Assembly: GCA_947466965.1 (NCBI GenBank)
Contig: CANIFU010000001.1
Coordinates: forward strand, 1-61,884
Direction of reading: 5' to 3'
Source: Bacteroidota bacterium
GTDB lineage: Bacteria; Bacteroidota; Bacteroidia; 2-12-FULL-35-15
Length of the DNA: 61,884 nucleotides
Shown here: positions 25,474 to 30,931 of the stretch, piece after piece
Numbering within the stretch: the first letter of the stretch is position 1
Layout of the letters: every line of letters starts with the position of its first letter
Position numbers and translations under genes: made by a program
The notes under the pieces: generated by a model
What the model was told of the DNA's origin: nothing
The model's database searches: none
Seen by the model: only the letters and a program-made list of their open reading frames with translations

Positions 25474-26736
25474 ATGTTCTACTATTTATTCGACTTTTTA
25501 GATAAACAATTTGATGTTCCCGGAGCAGGAGTTTTTCATTATATCTCTTTCCGCGCTGCAATGGCTCTAATCGGATCTCTTTTAATTTCATTGGTTTTTG
25601 GAAAACGAATCATCAATCTACTGCATCGTAAACAAGTTGGTGAAACAGTGCGTGACCTTGGTTTAAATGGTCAGTTAGAAAAAAAGGGAACACCTACCAT
25701 GGGAGGTTTAATTATTTTATCTGCAATTGTTGTTCCTACATTGTTTTTTGCAAAACTTCATAATATATATATTATTCTATTGCTGCTTTCTACTGTTTGG
25801 CTTGGAGCAATTGGTTTTTTGGATGATTACATTAAAGTATTCAAAAAAAATAAAGCGGGATTAGCAGGTAAATTTAAAGTGCTCGGACAAATTGGTATCG
25901 GACTTATTGTTGGAATAACTCTTTATTGTAATGATGAAGTTGTTGTGAAAGAAAAAATATTTGCAGGTAAAATTCCAACAATGGATGTTGTTAGTACTTC
26001 CGAGAAAAATACTCAAATCGCAATTTATTCTGAAGAAGCAACCAAGTCTATGAAGACGACCATACCTTTTGTGAAAAATAATGAATTTGACTATTCTTCC
26101 CTGCTTTCATTTTTAGGTGAAGGATATCAAAAATGGGCTTGGATCATTTTTATTCCCTTTGTGATCATTATTGTTACCGCAGTATCCAATGGAGCAAATA
26201 TTACAGATGGTATTGATGGTTTGGCGACAGGCACATCCGCTATTATTGGAGTTGTTTTGGGCATTCTCGCTTACGTTTCGGGTAATACGGTGTTCGCTGA
26301 TTATTTGAATATCATGTACATTCCGAATTCTGGTGAACTGGTAATTTTTATTGCCGCTTTTGTAGGAGCTTGTGTTGGTTTCTTGTGGTATAATTCTTTT
26401 CCTGCTCAGGTTTTTATGGGTGATACTGGCAGTTTGGCCTTGGGTGGAATTATTGCTGTTTTTGCAATAGCTATTCGTAAAGAACTTCTTATTCCAATTT
26501 TATGTGGCGTATTTCTGGTTGAAAATGTATCAGTGATGCTTCAAGTAGCCTATTTCAAAAGAATGAAGAAAAAATTTGGAATTGAATATGCGCGCGAAAA
26601 TAGGCTTTTTAAAATGGCGCCTTTGCACCATCACTATCAAAAATTGGGAATGCATGAATCGAAAATAGTATCCCGTTTTTGGATCATAGGAATTATGCTT
26701 GCTGTTTTAACAATTGTAACATTAAAGTTAAGATAA
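25474..26736 (+). CDS. mraY: Phospho-MurNAc-pentapeptide transferase
   Basis: Transfers phospho-MurNAc-pentapeptide to undecaprenyl phosphate, making lipid I, at the inner membrane. The 420-residue protein is longer than the usual 330-360 because of an extra loop (about 150-215), common in Bacteroidota. About ten membrane helices are seen. Motifs: [22 protein letters not shown]-type Asp pair (about 112-122), [27 protein letters not shown] and the HHH motif [12 protein letters not shown]. Its stop codon directly abuts the ATG of murD. Confidence 0.96.
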
Positions 26737-28077
26737 ATGAAACGCTTAGTAATTCTTGGCGGTGGTGAAAGCGGTGTTGGTACTGCTGTATTAGCTCAAA
26801 AAAATGGATTTGATGTTTTCCTTTCTGATAAAGGAAAAATAAATGATACGTATAAAAATGTTCTTTCAAAATATGAAATTAAGTGGGAGGAAGAAAAGCA
26901 TACACTTGACTTAATCCTCAATGCTCACGAAGTAGTAAAAAGCCCTGGGATTCCTGATAAAGTTGATTTGATAAAAGCATTGATTGAAAAAGGAATACCT
27001 GTTATCTCAGAAATTGAATTTGCTGGTAGATACACAAATGCAAAAAAAATCTGTATCACAGGAAGTAACGGGAAAACAACTACAACATTGCTTATTTATC
27101 ACATGATGCAAAAAGCAGGTTTGAATGTTGGTTTAGCTGGCAATGTTGGAAAAAGTTTTGCATTGCAAGTAGCACAGAATGATTTTGATTTTTATGTGTT
27201 GGAGTTAAGCAGTTTTCAATTGGATGGCATGTTTGAATTTAAAGCCGACATAGCAGTTCTTTTGAATATTACTCCTGATCACTTAGACCGATATGATTAT
27301 AAACTAGAAAATTATGCAGACTCAAAGTTTAGGATCATTCAGAATCAAACAGAATTAGATGCATTTGTTTATTGTATTGATGATGAAGTGACATTGAATA
27401 AAATACGAACTAAAAATAGTAAAGCAAAACAATTTCCTATTTCTATAAAAAAACAATTAGAAATCGGAGCTTATTTAAACGAAAACAATCAAATAGTAAT
27501 AAATACAAATAACACAAATCCCTTATTTATGACAATACAAGAACTAGCACTACAAGGAAAACACAACATCTACAATTCAATGGCTGCAGGTGTTGCCGGA
27601 AAACTTGTAGAGATCAGAAAAGAAACTATTCGCGAGAGCCTTTCTGATTTTCATAACATCGACCATCGTTTGGAGTTGGTAGGGAACGTTCATGGTATTG
27701 AATTCATTAATGATTCAAAAGCAACCAATGTAAATTCTACATGGTATGCGTTGGAAAGTATGAATAATCCTGTTATTCTCATTCTTGGTGGAGTTGACAA
27801 AGGAAATGATTATTCAATGTTGACCGATCTTGTGAAATCAAAAGTGAAAGCTATTATTTGTTTAGGTACAGATAATAAAAAAATCATTAAGGCTTTTGCA
27901 GATGTCGTTGATACAATTTTAGAAGCAAAATCGGCTCAGGAGGCTGTAGCTCAATCATACAAAATTGGTAAAAAAGGCGATACTGTTTTATTGTCACCTG
28001 CTTGTGCTAGTTTCGATATGTTCGAGAATTACGAAGATAGAGGAACCCAATTTAAGCAAGCGGTAAGGGCTTTATAA
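26737..28077 (+). CDS. murD: UDP-MurNAc-L-alanine:D-glutamate ligase
   Basis: Adds D-glutamate to UDP-MurNAc-L-Ala using ATP in the cytoplasm. The 446-residue protein has an N-terminal Rossmann-like domain (VILGGGESGVGTAVL), a central ATPase with ITGSNGKTTTT (about 107-117) and LNITPDHLDRY, and a C-terminal domain with FINDSKATNVNST, LGGVDKGNDYS and LLSPACASFDMFENYEDRG. The residues known to bind D-Glu in E. coli MurD (Thr321, Lys348, Ser415) correspond to the Thr of DSKAT, the Lys of GVDKG and the Ser of CAS, all present. It follows mraY without a gap. Confidence 0.96.
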   Translation: MKRLVILGGGESGVGTAVLAQKNGFDVFLSDKGKINDTYKNVLSKYEIKWEEEKHTLDLILNAHEVVKSPGIPDKVDLIKALIEKGIPVISEIEFAGRYTNAKKICITGSNGKTTTTLLIYHMMQKAGLNVGLAGNVGKSFALQVAQNDFDFYVLELSSFQLDGMFEFKADIAVLLNITPDHLDRYDYKLENYADSKFRIIQNQTELDAFVYCIDDEVTLNKIRTKNSKAKQFPISIKKQLEIGAYLNENNQIVINTNNTNPLFMTIQELALQGKHNIYNSMAAGVAGKLVEIRKETIRESLSDFHNIDHRLELVGNVHGIEFINDSKATNVNSTWYALESMNNPVILILGGVDKGNDYSMLTDLVKSKVKAIICLGTDNKKIIKAFADVVDTILEAKSAQEAVAQSYKIGKKGDTVLLSPACASFDMFENYEDRGTQFKQAVRAL

Positions 28078-28111: not shown

Positions 28112-28621
28112 ATGATGGAAAATAAAAACATTCAAAATTATAACGAAAAATTAAATCAGTTGCAATTGTCTCGTGAACCTGTTCGCTCTTCCGAAGATGA
28201 TCACCAATTAGAATTTATAGATGAAATAAATGGTATTGCATTTATTAATGATTCTAAATCCATAAGGCTTACCGCTACTCGAAATGCGTTGGAGTCTATA
28301 AATGCGTCTGTAGTTCTTATTATTGGTGGTGATGATAGTGATAATGATTATTCTGTTCTAGCTCAGCAGGTAAAGCAAAAAGTTGTTTCCATTATCTATC
28401 TGGGTGTTGCTAGCGAAAAGATTCTAAACAGTTATTCTGCTCATAAAATGCTCTTTGCGAAAGCATTGTCTATTAAAGAAGCCGTTCAGATTTCTTTTGC
28501 TTACGCCATTTCGGGTGATGTCGTTTTATTTTCTCCTGCTTGTGCTCATTCTCATTCTTTCGATAATTATCAAAGTCGTGGTAATGAATTTAAAAGTATC
28601 GTTAAACAAATTAAAGGTTAA
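28112..28621 (+). CDS. Orphan MurD C-terminal-domain paralogue
   Basis: 169 residues that align only with the C-terminal (rotating) domain of the upstream murD. Shared blocks include GIxFINDSK, ALES, GG-D--NDYS-L, LFSPACA and the RG near the end; a hand count gives 33 identities in a 59-residue stretch. There is no P-loop and no central ATPase domain, so it cannot be a ligase. Residues expected to bind D-Glu are replaced: the DSKAT Thr by Ile, the GVDKG Lys by Ser, the CAS Ser by His. About 35 charged residues precede the domain, with no membrane segment. It sits between murD and ftsW, 34 nt after murD. Function unknown; a regulatory or scaffolding role in precursor synthesis is inference. 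Confidence 0.85.
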   Translation: MMENKNIQNYNEKLNQLQLSREPVRSSEDDHQLEFIDEINGIAFINDSKSIRLTATRNALESINASVVLIIGGDDSDNDYSVLAQQVKQKVVSIIYLGVASEKILNSYSAHKMLFAKALSIKEAVQISFAYAISGDVVLFSPACAHSHSFDNYQSRGNEFKSIVKQIKG

Positions 28622-28686: not shown

Positions 28687-29835
28687 ATGAACTTATTTAA
28701 ATACATAAAAGGTGATAAGGTAATTTGGACTGTAGTTTTACTACTATCACTATTATCCATTTTGGTTGTTTATAGTTCAGTGGTTGCTTTAGCATATCGC
28801 TATAAAAATGGCGATACTGGATCTTATCTGATTAAACATATTTTTATTGTTGCTACCGGTATATTCTTGATGTATCTTATTCATAAAGTAAAATATACCT
28901 ATTTTTCTAGAATCTCTCAGATTGCAGTTTTTCTTGCGGCACCTTTATTATTGTATACCTTATTGAAAGGTGTAAGTGCAGGAGATGCGTCCCGTTGGTT
29001 AGCAATTCCAGGAACTTCTTTAACATTTCAAACATCCGATTTTGCAAAGTTAGCATTGATTACTTATGTCGCTAGGATGTTATCAATTAAACAGGATGTA
29101 ATAAAAGATTTTAAGCAAGGCTTTTTGCCCGTCATTATTCCTGTTGTTATTATTTGTGCATTAATTTTTCCTGCAAATTTTTCTACCGCAGCTTTGTTAT
29201 TTTTGACTTGTCTGGTTTTAATGTTTGTTGGCAGAATGAATGCAAAACATTTATGGCTACTGATCGGATCAGGTGTTATTTTTATTGCATTTCTTGTGAT
29301 GATAATATTGAACTTCCCCGATGCAATTCCTCGCGGAAGAACGTGGAAAGCTCGTATCGAAAATTTCAGTAAAGGCGATAGCGAAAGTAATTTTCAGGCA
29401 GAACAAGCTAAAATTGCAATTGCTCGAGGTATTGTGCCACAAGGTCCTGGTAATAGTATTTCTAGGAATTTTTTGCCTCAAGCATCTTCCGATTTTATTT
29501 TTGCAATTCTAATTGAAGAGTGGGGTATCATTACAGCTATTAGTATTATATTCTTATATGTAGTATTACTTTTTCGGGGTGTTCGTATTGCCAATAATAG
29601 TGAACGTACATTCGGTAGTTTATTGGCAATTGGTCTTACATTTAGTTTGGTATTTCAAGCAATGATAAACATGGCTGTTGCTGTTAATTTATTCCCTGTA
29701 ACTGGTCAGCCTTTACCATTAATTAGTATGGGAGGAACGTCCATTTGGTTTACCAGTATTTCTCTTGGAATTATTTTGAGTGTTAGTCGTGAAAATGAAG
29801 TTAAAGCGGAAGGAGGAGAATTTGCAACCACTTAA
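28687..29835 (+). CDS. ftsW: SEDS-family septal glycosyltransferase
   Basis: The peptidoglycan polymerase of the divisome, partner of FtsI. The 382-residue protein has about ten membrane helices, with the SEDS motifs DASRWLAIPGTSLTFQTSDFAK (about 98-119), an arginine-rich loop TWKARIENF, QAEQAKIAIARGIVPQG and the FLPQASSDFIFAILIEEWG block, then LPLISMGGTS near the C terminus. Its end overlaps the start of murG. It is probably in the same operon as murD and the orphan domain gene. Confidence 0.95.
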   Translation: MNLFKYIKGDKVIWTVVLLLSLLSILVVYSSVVALAYRYKNGDTGSYLIKHIFIVATGIFLMYLIHKVKYTYFSRISQIAVFLAAPLLLYTLLKGVSAGDASRWLAIPGTSLTFQTSDFAKLALITYVARMLSIKQDVIKDFKQGFLPVIIPVVIICALIFPANFSTAALLFLTCLVLMFVGRMNAKHLWLLIGSGVIFIAFLVMIILNFPDAIPRGRTWKARIENFSKGDSESNFQAEQAKIAIARGIVPQGPGNSISRNFLPQASSDFIFAILIEEWGIITAISIIFLYVVLLFRGVRIANNSERTFGSLLAIGLTFSLVFQAMINMAVAVNLFPVTGQPLPLISMGGTSIWFTSISLGIILSVSRENEVKAEGGEFATT

Positions 29836-30931
29836 AATAATTATTAGCGGAGGAGGAACTGGCGGTCATATTTTTCCTGCTATCGCTATTGCTAACGCAA
29901 TTAAAAGTTTACGCCCTGATACAGAATTTCTTTTTGTTGGTGCGTTAGGGAAAATGGAAATGGAAAAAGTGCCTGCTGCAGGTTATAAAATTGAAGGTCT
30001 TTGGATTTCAGGTTTTCAAAGAAAACTATCTATGTCAAATTTGGCTTTCCCATTTAAATTAATCAGCAGTCTCTTCAAGGCAAAAAGAATTTTGAAATCC
30101 TTTAAGCCAGATGCTGTAATTGGAACAGGTGGTTTCGCAAGTGGACCAATGTTACAGATTGCTGTTCGAAATAGCGTTGTTACACTTTTGCAAGAACAAA
30201 ATTCGTATCCTGGAATTACAAATAAAATTCTTTCAAAAAAAGTTGACCGCATTTGTGTTGCATACAGTGGAATGGAAAAATATTTTCCGAAAGAAAAAAT
30301 TCTGTTAACAGGGAATCCTGTTCGTCAAGATATTTTATCGCTAGATGGGAAAAAAGAAAGAGGATTAGAATATTTTGGACTAAATACAAATAAAAAAACT
30401 ATCCTAGTCATCGGTGGAAGTTTAGGTGCTAAAACGGTGAACGAAAGTATTCTGAATTGTCTCGATGCATTTGAAAAAAATAATATTCAGTTAATCTGGC
30501 AAACGGGTAAAAGCTATTATGAAAATGCAAAATTAGCAGTAGCTAAATTTGAAAAGAATGGCATCACGGCTTTTGATTTTATTCAAAAAATGGATTATGC
30601 CTATGCGGTTGCTGATCTAGTTATTTCCAGAGCCGGTGCAAGTTCGGTTTCAGAATTGTGTTTGGTGAAGAAGCCCTGTATTTTAATTCCTTCTCCAAAT
30701 GTTGCAGAAGATCACCAAACAAAAAATGCAATGGCTTTGGTAACCTATAATGCAGCTCTTATTATTAAAGATGAGGAGGCACGTGAAAAGTTATGTGAAC
30801 AAACAATTGCACTAATTAATAATGAAGAACAATGTTATAAACTGTCCGAAAATATTGGAAAATTAGCATTTCAGGACTCTGCTATTACTATTGCAAATGA
30901 ACTGTTGAGCTTAATAAATAGAAAAAATTAA
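29822..30931 (+). CDS. murG: UDP-GlcNAc:lipid I N-acetylglucosaminyltransferase
   Basis: Converts lipid I to lipid II at the inner face of the membrane. The protein of about 369 residues starts IIISGGGTGGHIFPAIAIA, the diphosphate-binding loop, and contains VIGTGGFASGPML, LLQEQNSYPG, GGSLGAKTVNE, and VISRAGASSVSELC with PNVAEDHQTKNA. Predicted start: TTG at 29822, placed just after GGAGGAG and overlapping the 3' end of ftsW (in another frame). An ATG at 29795 or a GTG at 29780 would add 9 to 14 residues not seen in the family. Confidence 0.94.
   Translation: MQPLKIIISGGGTGGHIFPAIAIANAIKSLRPDTEFLFVGALGKMEMEKVPAAGYKIEGLWISGFQRKLSMSNLAFPFKLISSLFKAKRILKSFKPDAVIGTGGFASGPMLQIAVRNSVVTLLQEQNSYPGITNKILSKKVDRICVAYSGMEKYFPKEKILLTGNPVRQDILSLDGKKERGLEYFGLNTNKKTILVIGGSLGAKTVNESILNCLDAFEKNNIQLIWQTGKSYYENAKLAVAKFEKNGITAFDFIQKMDYAYAVADLVISRAGASSVSELCLVKKPCILIPSPNVAEDHQTKNAMALVTYNAALIIKDEEAREKLCEQTIALINNEEQCYKLSENIGKLAFQDSAITIANELLSLINRKN

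Follow-up and report, generated by a model that had tools for sequence, protein, structure and literature searches.

A stand-alone MurD C-terminal domain gene conserved beside ftsW in the dcw cluster of class Bacteroidia

Introduction

Why would a bacterium keep one domain of MurD as a separate gene, a few nucleotides away from a complete murD? The question is raised by a window of 61,884 nucleotides (the whole stretch of DNA that was analysed) from a Bacteroidota bacterium, in which the dcw cluster runs mraZ, mraW, an ftsL-like ORF, a penicillin-binding protein gene, murE, mraY, murD, the gene in question (hereafter solo), ftsW, murG, murC, an ftsQ-like ORF, ftsA and ftsZ. These names were given by sequence resemblance, with murE, mraY, murD, ftsW and murG as search references. 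The features on which the argument depends are as follows.

25474..26736, + strand: mraY, in family f73 the direct upstream neighbour of solo
26737..28077, + strand: canonical murD, the catalytic residues of its C-domain all intact
28112..28621, + strand: solo, the stand-alone MurD C-terminal-domain gene, 169 aa, ATG start, alternative start 28115
28112..28177, + strand: N-terminal tail of solo, residues 1-22, predicted disordered
28196..28606, + strand: MurD-C-like globular domain of solo, TIGR01087 columns 304-440
28687..29835, + strand: ftsW, the downstream neighbour of solo at almost every cluster locus inspected
29780..30931, + strand: murG, 3' of ftsW

Solo begins with a tandem ATG ATG (28112-28117), of which the second (28115) fits the starts of homologues better. 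It lies 34 bp from the murD stop and 65 bp from the ftsW ATG, and these gaps, together with the short spacing seen in relatives, bear out the tight murD-solo-ftsW operon proposed in a preliminary description of this DNA. Its GC and GC3 are the same as those of murD and ftsW.

A single domain of MurD

The only match of solo besides itself in its own 3.1-Mb genome is the C-domain of the adjacent MurD (45% identity, 139 residues, E 3.9e-33), just as the preliminary description had it when it aligned the 169-residue product with that domain alone; the 33 identities it counted from GIxFINDSK to YLG also stand, over a stretch that we recount as 58 rather than 59 residues. The TIGR01087 profile aligns over columns 305-440 of 441 only (4.7e-38, 131 bits, below the 212-bit cut-off), and the N-terminal UDP-MurNAc-binding and ATP-binding middle domains that define this MurD ligase equivalog are missing, in agreement with the earlier remark that solo has no ATP-binding domain. 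Pfam Mur_ligase_C (PF02875) recognizes the protein at 30.9 bits against a cut-off of 28.4, and the fold matches too. An AlphaFold2 model built on a 54-row alignment of solos (pLDDT 82.6, pTM 0.78) supplies the structure prediction proposed at the outset and matches MurD C-domains: a Foldseek search of the PDB places MurD structures at the top (3lk7, E 9.5e-13, TM 0.76 by query length), followed by other Mur ligases, MurT and the Mur-type subunit of plastid RNA polymerase. The tail has a pLDDT below 50 with one weak helix at residues 8-15, and its motif KIxNYHxKLN is conserved within the genus. Solo is therefore predicted to fold as a MurD C-domain behind a disordered tail of 20-45 residues.

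In the numbering of the E. coli literature, the solo of the window carries R302Q, T321I, K348S and S415H, while the adjacent MurD keeps all four residues; the last three changes had been recognized before (Thr to Ile, Lys to Ser, Ser to His), and R302, presumably an ATP contact in MurD, is added to them. T321, K348 and S415 of MurD hydrogen-bond the D-Glu moiety or its mimics (PMC3527612), so that where a MurD ligase holds D-Glu the solo of the window has I, S and H. Across 65 solos from 18 families, weighted by family, H301, E304, N316, P411 and G426 are invariant, most members retain D317 (87%), S415 (88%), Y422 (90%) and R425 (97%), and residues vary freely in the 348-350 loop (K348 21%, N350 29%). 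This pattern points to conservation of the fold and of the side with H301 and the NDS loop, but not of the amino-acid loop; the invariant residues may serve either the fold or a binding face. K348 is kept in the solos of f12, which also keep the NDSKATN and S415 motifs, and in some of those of f27. Every MurD C-domain examined has its own catalytic residues except in G043, where MurD itself (L036) has K348H (GGEEHGND), a change unusual in canonical MurD.

Going by the established structure of MurD, a lone C-domain offers no site for ATP phosphates or UDP-MurNAc, and catalysis by solo is therefore very unlikely.

Distribution, synteny and selection

Related genomes were searched between murD and ftsW, as had been suggested, and solo was found in 13 of 35 sampled congeners (52-79% identity) and in many families. 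Within the class, a true second copy of the domain occurs in about 84 of 395 genomes, about a fifth, from at least 21 families; this is a hand count from which six false cases were removed and in which part of the carriers were inspected individually. The six were weak second hits: in G040, G122, G119 and G320 they belong to larger proteins, and in G271 and G362 they appear to come from murDs interrupted by contig ends. Most sampled genomes are metagenome assemblies. Solo is absent from most of the class, and in genomes that are free of it murD simply adjoins ftsW. No convincing second copy was seen in other classes of the phylum (297 genomes of the phylum), where two genomes with two weak hits resemble split murDs.

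By hand tally, solo directly precedes ftsW in nearly all of the about 80 loci inspected, which come from 20 families, with murD, or mraY in f73, on its 5' side; the window and about 80 loci thus share a single MurD-C domain of about 160-190 aa directly upstream of ftsW. Among the fetched loci, the order murD-solo-ftsW was found in f1, f4, f5, f9, f10, f12, f13, f24, f27, f29, f30, f31, f37, f41, f44, f46, f55 and f75, and median gaps of 20 bp (murD-solo) and 15 bp (solo-ftsW) give it an operon-like spacing. The solo-ftsW pair lies on a contig other than that of murD in f42 (G076), and in f43 (G330) solo is 3' of murD with a next gene that is not ftsW. Some genomes have more than one copy. Two different solo genes stand in tandem between murD and ftsW at L166 (G358), a second and more diverged solo outside the dcw cluster lies beside an aldehyde dehydrogenase gene in f4/f46 (L038 in G038, L172 in G120, L178 in G182, L173 in G080), and further extra copies were seen at L171 (G076) and L174 (G407). 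At L006 346-1396 (G031) ftsW is broken into two frames that overlap, probably through a fault in assembly or sequencing.

Could solo be the visible end of a broken second murD? No N-terminal or central domain accompanies the copy in any relative examined, and murD and solo are in the same frame at 23 of about 64 loci, one third, which is the chance expectation; a split or frameshifted second murD is therefore excluded. The sequencing error that the preliminary description feared might hide an intact second murD is likewise not borne out.

Selection was estimated as omega by Nei-Gojobori counting, with many dS values above 1, so that the estimates are imprecise but all in the same direction. 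Between the window and its nearest congener (G025), omega is 0.105 for solo (dN 0.115, dS 1.09), 0.020 for the MurD C-domain and 0.037 for FtsW, and solo values are 0.05-0.22 in the listed genus pairs. In closer pairs of f12, solo omega is mostly 0.01-0.02 compared with 0.08-0.15 for the MurD C-domain of the same genomes. Five f12 loci at which solo is more constrained than the C-domain of its own MurD (L034, L127, L128, L133 and L134) keep K348. The comparisons indicate that selection maintains solo at the protein level. Neutral decay to a pseudogene is rejected by the intact frame, by these omega values and by the spread over congeners and families, and the earlier argument that a retained frame speaks for function and against decay gains the dN/dS estimate it had called for. 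The opposite outcome named there, absence from relatives with a neutral pattern, was not found. Its label “probably dead” holds for ligase activity only.

Origin and losses

When 23 solos and 28 MurD C-domains are put in one tree, a single branch (97/93) separates all solos from all MurD C-domains. Once f73 and MurD2 sequences are included, support for the corresponding branch is 91/84, and within the solo side the f73 solos group with those of f12 (97/84). Joining the genus solos to their own MurDs is rejected by the AU test when relatives from f41/f44/f29 are included (p 0.0016); without these relatives, a private origin in the window's genus (f1) is not rejected (p 0.58). Joining to own-family MurDs is rejected for f10 and f4 (p < 0.001) and is not rejected for f12 and f37. 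From the trees and AU tests together, a single old origin for all families is likely and is the best reading, with two or more origins possible. A recent tandem duplicate of this genome's murD is rejected by the first of these tests and by the grouping with other solos. The preliminary description had derived the domain from the genome's own murD, and an old lineage common to other families now takes the place of that idea; its view of a repurposed MurD domain is supported, as the protein appears unable to ligate by itself and is under selection.

The gene is dispensable. It is absent from most of the class and has been lost several times inside the genus, and the sister genomes G018 and G009 have decayed 3' solo remnants between murD and ftsW, of which the readable piece in G018 ends in DTYRSRGNEFKRVIKELRG.

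A family without canonical MurD

The most informative carriers belong to family f73, where solo is present in nearly all of the 61 genomes sampled. Its fetched loci read murE-mraY-solo-ftsW, then murG where the stretch reaches, and murD is missing from the cluster. The only full-length MurD-type protein is encoded elsewhere and is often fused to a MurL-type epimerase in one frame of 885-1138 aa (e.g., L186 in G323, L207 in G692 and L205 in G667). All four MurD2 C-domains examined in the family have K348R, the change described for L-Glu-specific MurD2 (PMC8788868). A MurL homologue was found in 22 of 22 f73 genomes, with scores below the cut-off of the Xanthomonadales model, and glutamate racemase (MurI) was found in 0 of 19, compared with 11 of 11 genomes from other families. 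It seems that f73 as a whole follows the L-Glu route of MurL and MurD2, which is listed for Gamma- and Alphaproteobacteria and Actinobacteria only (PMC8788868).

Since solo was kept in f73 after the loss of canonical MurD and of the racemase, its role, as judged from gene content, is independent of both: it needs neither canonical MurD nor racemase-made D-Glu. The earlier suggestion that solo may bind MurD is weakened in so far as it made MurD the specific partner.

What the protein may do

Our best guess, based on position and conservation, is that solo is a component of the peptidoglycan precursor/divisome machinery, a link that the preliminary description had also suggested. Strong constraint, a fixed place by ftsW and survival without canonical MurD together favor a protein that binds within the MraY-MurG-FtsW segment of the pathway. 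We tentatively propose, with a little less than half our confidence, that solo, without being an enzyme, acts by binding near MraY, MurG and FtsW, either as an adaptor or by regulating the supply of lipid II precursors. In this proposal, the MurD C-terminal domain would have gained a gene of its own between murD and ftsW at an early stage of class Bacteroidia. Its product would be non-ligating, having no P-loop domain, no UDP-MurNAc domain and, in the window's lineage, no D-Glu pocket. It would dock on a protein of lipid II assembly, on the side of MurD or MurD2, MurE/F, MraY, MurG or FtsW, and would there adjust or localize precursor supply. Of this, the fold (by homology and model), position, selection, origin, survival in f73 and losses in the genus are observed, and we infer that the protein works by binding, in which pathway and on which partner. 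An adaptor is plausible, given reports from several bacteria that Mur ligases associate with MurG, MreB and MraY (PMC6420597).

The main rival reading is that solo acts as a substitute lid, which would take the place of the mobile C-domain of MurD or MurD2 on the ATP-binding middle domain of that enzyme and fix an inactive or active state. Open and closed states of MurD differ in the position of the C-domain (PMC3527612), solo is MurD's own lid domain and adjoins murD in most carriers, and it keeps H301, N316, D317 and S318, which in MurD lie on the stretch turned toward the middle domain, while K348 and N350 of the D-Glu loop are lost. However, solo is also kept where canonical murD has been lost, and the partner there would have to be MurD2; R302 is replaced in the window's lineage. 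A MurD-solo tandem AlphaFold2 model (19-row alignment, no inter-domain error output) has a pTM of 0.62 and no confident docking, and among sites that track solo loss in the genus none was found in MurD and two weak ones in FtsW, compared with one and one in control clades, which gives no usable signal. Neither result points to a partner, and both weigh against the favored reading as well, as do the dispensability of the gene, the arrangement in G330 and the extra copies outside the cluster. We consider this reading unlikely, though worth holding in mind.

A further reading, quite unlikely in our judgement, makes solo a sensor for a bound nucleotide, amino acid or UDP-precursor, the level of which it would signal to MraY, MurG or FtsW. 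In its favor, the NDS loop and H301 are kept, as are S415 and Y422 in most families and K348 in f12 and some f27. However, the solo of the window is without T321, K348 and S415 and f73 is without glutamate racemase, so D-Glu cannot be the general ligand, and the phosphates of ATP are bound by the middle domain of MurD, which solo does not have.

We find it hard to credit that solo is only a relic or a translational spacer, a leftover duplicate kept for its place in the operon, for example by coupling ftsW translation to murD. Its repeated loss in the genus, the decayed remnants and the short intergenic gaps would fit such a role, but the dN/dS values disfavor it, as do the unbroken reading frames of some 20 families, the persistence of the gene in f73, the extra paralogues beyond the cluster in f4 and f46 and the solo-free genomes in which murD and ftsW are direct neighbours.

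Least credible of all, with hardly any of our confidence, is a free domain that gives MurD its D-Glu binding in some families: the f12 solos, with their retained motifs and constraint stronger than that on their own MurD C-domain, suggest it, but the MurD C-domains examined have catalytic residues of their own (apart from the K348H of G043) and the pocket is missing in most solos, including that of the window.

Relation to known systems

The binding component that we favor would differ from each known protein that it resembles. The MurD C-terminal domain (TIGR01087/PF02875; PDB 3lk7, 2jff, 5a5f) shares its fold, and the core motifs INDS, SPxC and YxxRGxxF are also in solo, with homology to the adjacent MurD over the 139 residues given above. 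In contrast, solo is a separate gene without UDP-MurNAc and ATP domains, has exchanged the D-Glu residues for others in the lineage of the window, and has its own disordered N-terminal tail and its own branch of the tree. MurD2, the L-Glu-adding ligase of the MurL pathway, is likewise a diverged MurD lineage and has K348R in common with some solos; MurD2, however, is a full-length ligase, whereas solo consists of a single domain and is present alongside MurD2 in f73. MurT/GatD is another case of a Mur-type protein with a new cell-wall role (weak structural match 6h5e, E 1.5e-5), but MurT keeps the ATP domain that solo is without and works with the amidotransferase GatD. The Mur-type subunit of plastid RNA polymerase (8ras chain Q, which we take to be the MurE-like subunit PAP11; weak match, E 1.0e-5) gives a precedent for a structural role, in a different system, from a different Mur family and in a protein larger than one domain.

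Pfam and NCBIfam contain no model for the stand-alone gene, a library of defence systems gave no match to it, and we found no description of it in a literature search in which subscription journals were poorly covered. The domain itself is known; what is new is a conserved, non-catalytic, separate dcw gene derived from the C-domain of MurD.

Significance

The dcw cluster is among the best-studied bacterial gene clusters, yet in about one of five genomes sampled from the class it includes an additional gene for which none of the family models used has a name. We are evenly divided on the full statement that solo is a non-enzymatic component of lipid II supply or of the divisome, made from MurD's lid domain, carried by some twenty families and, in one of them, still present after the loss of both canonical MurD and the racemase. 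That family is a natural experiment against which models that need canonical MurD can be tested. If solo is a binding subunit, it would provide a direct handle on the tie between precursor synthesis and FtsW.
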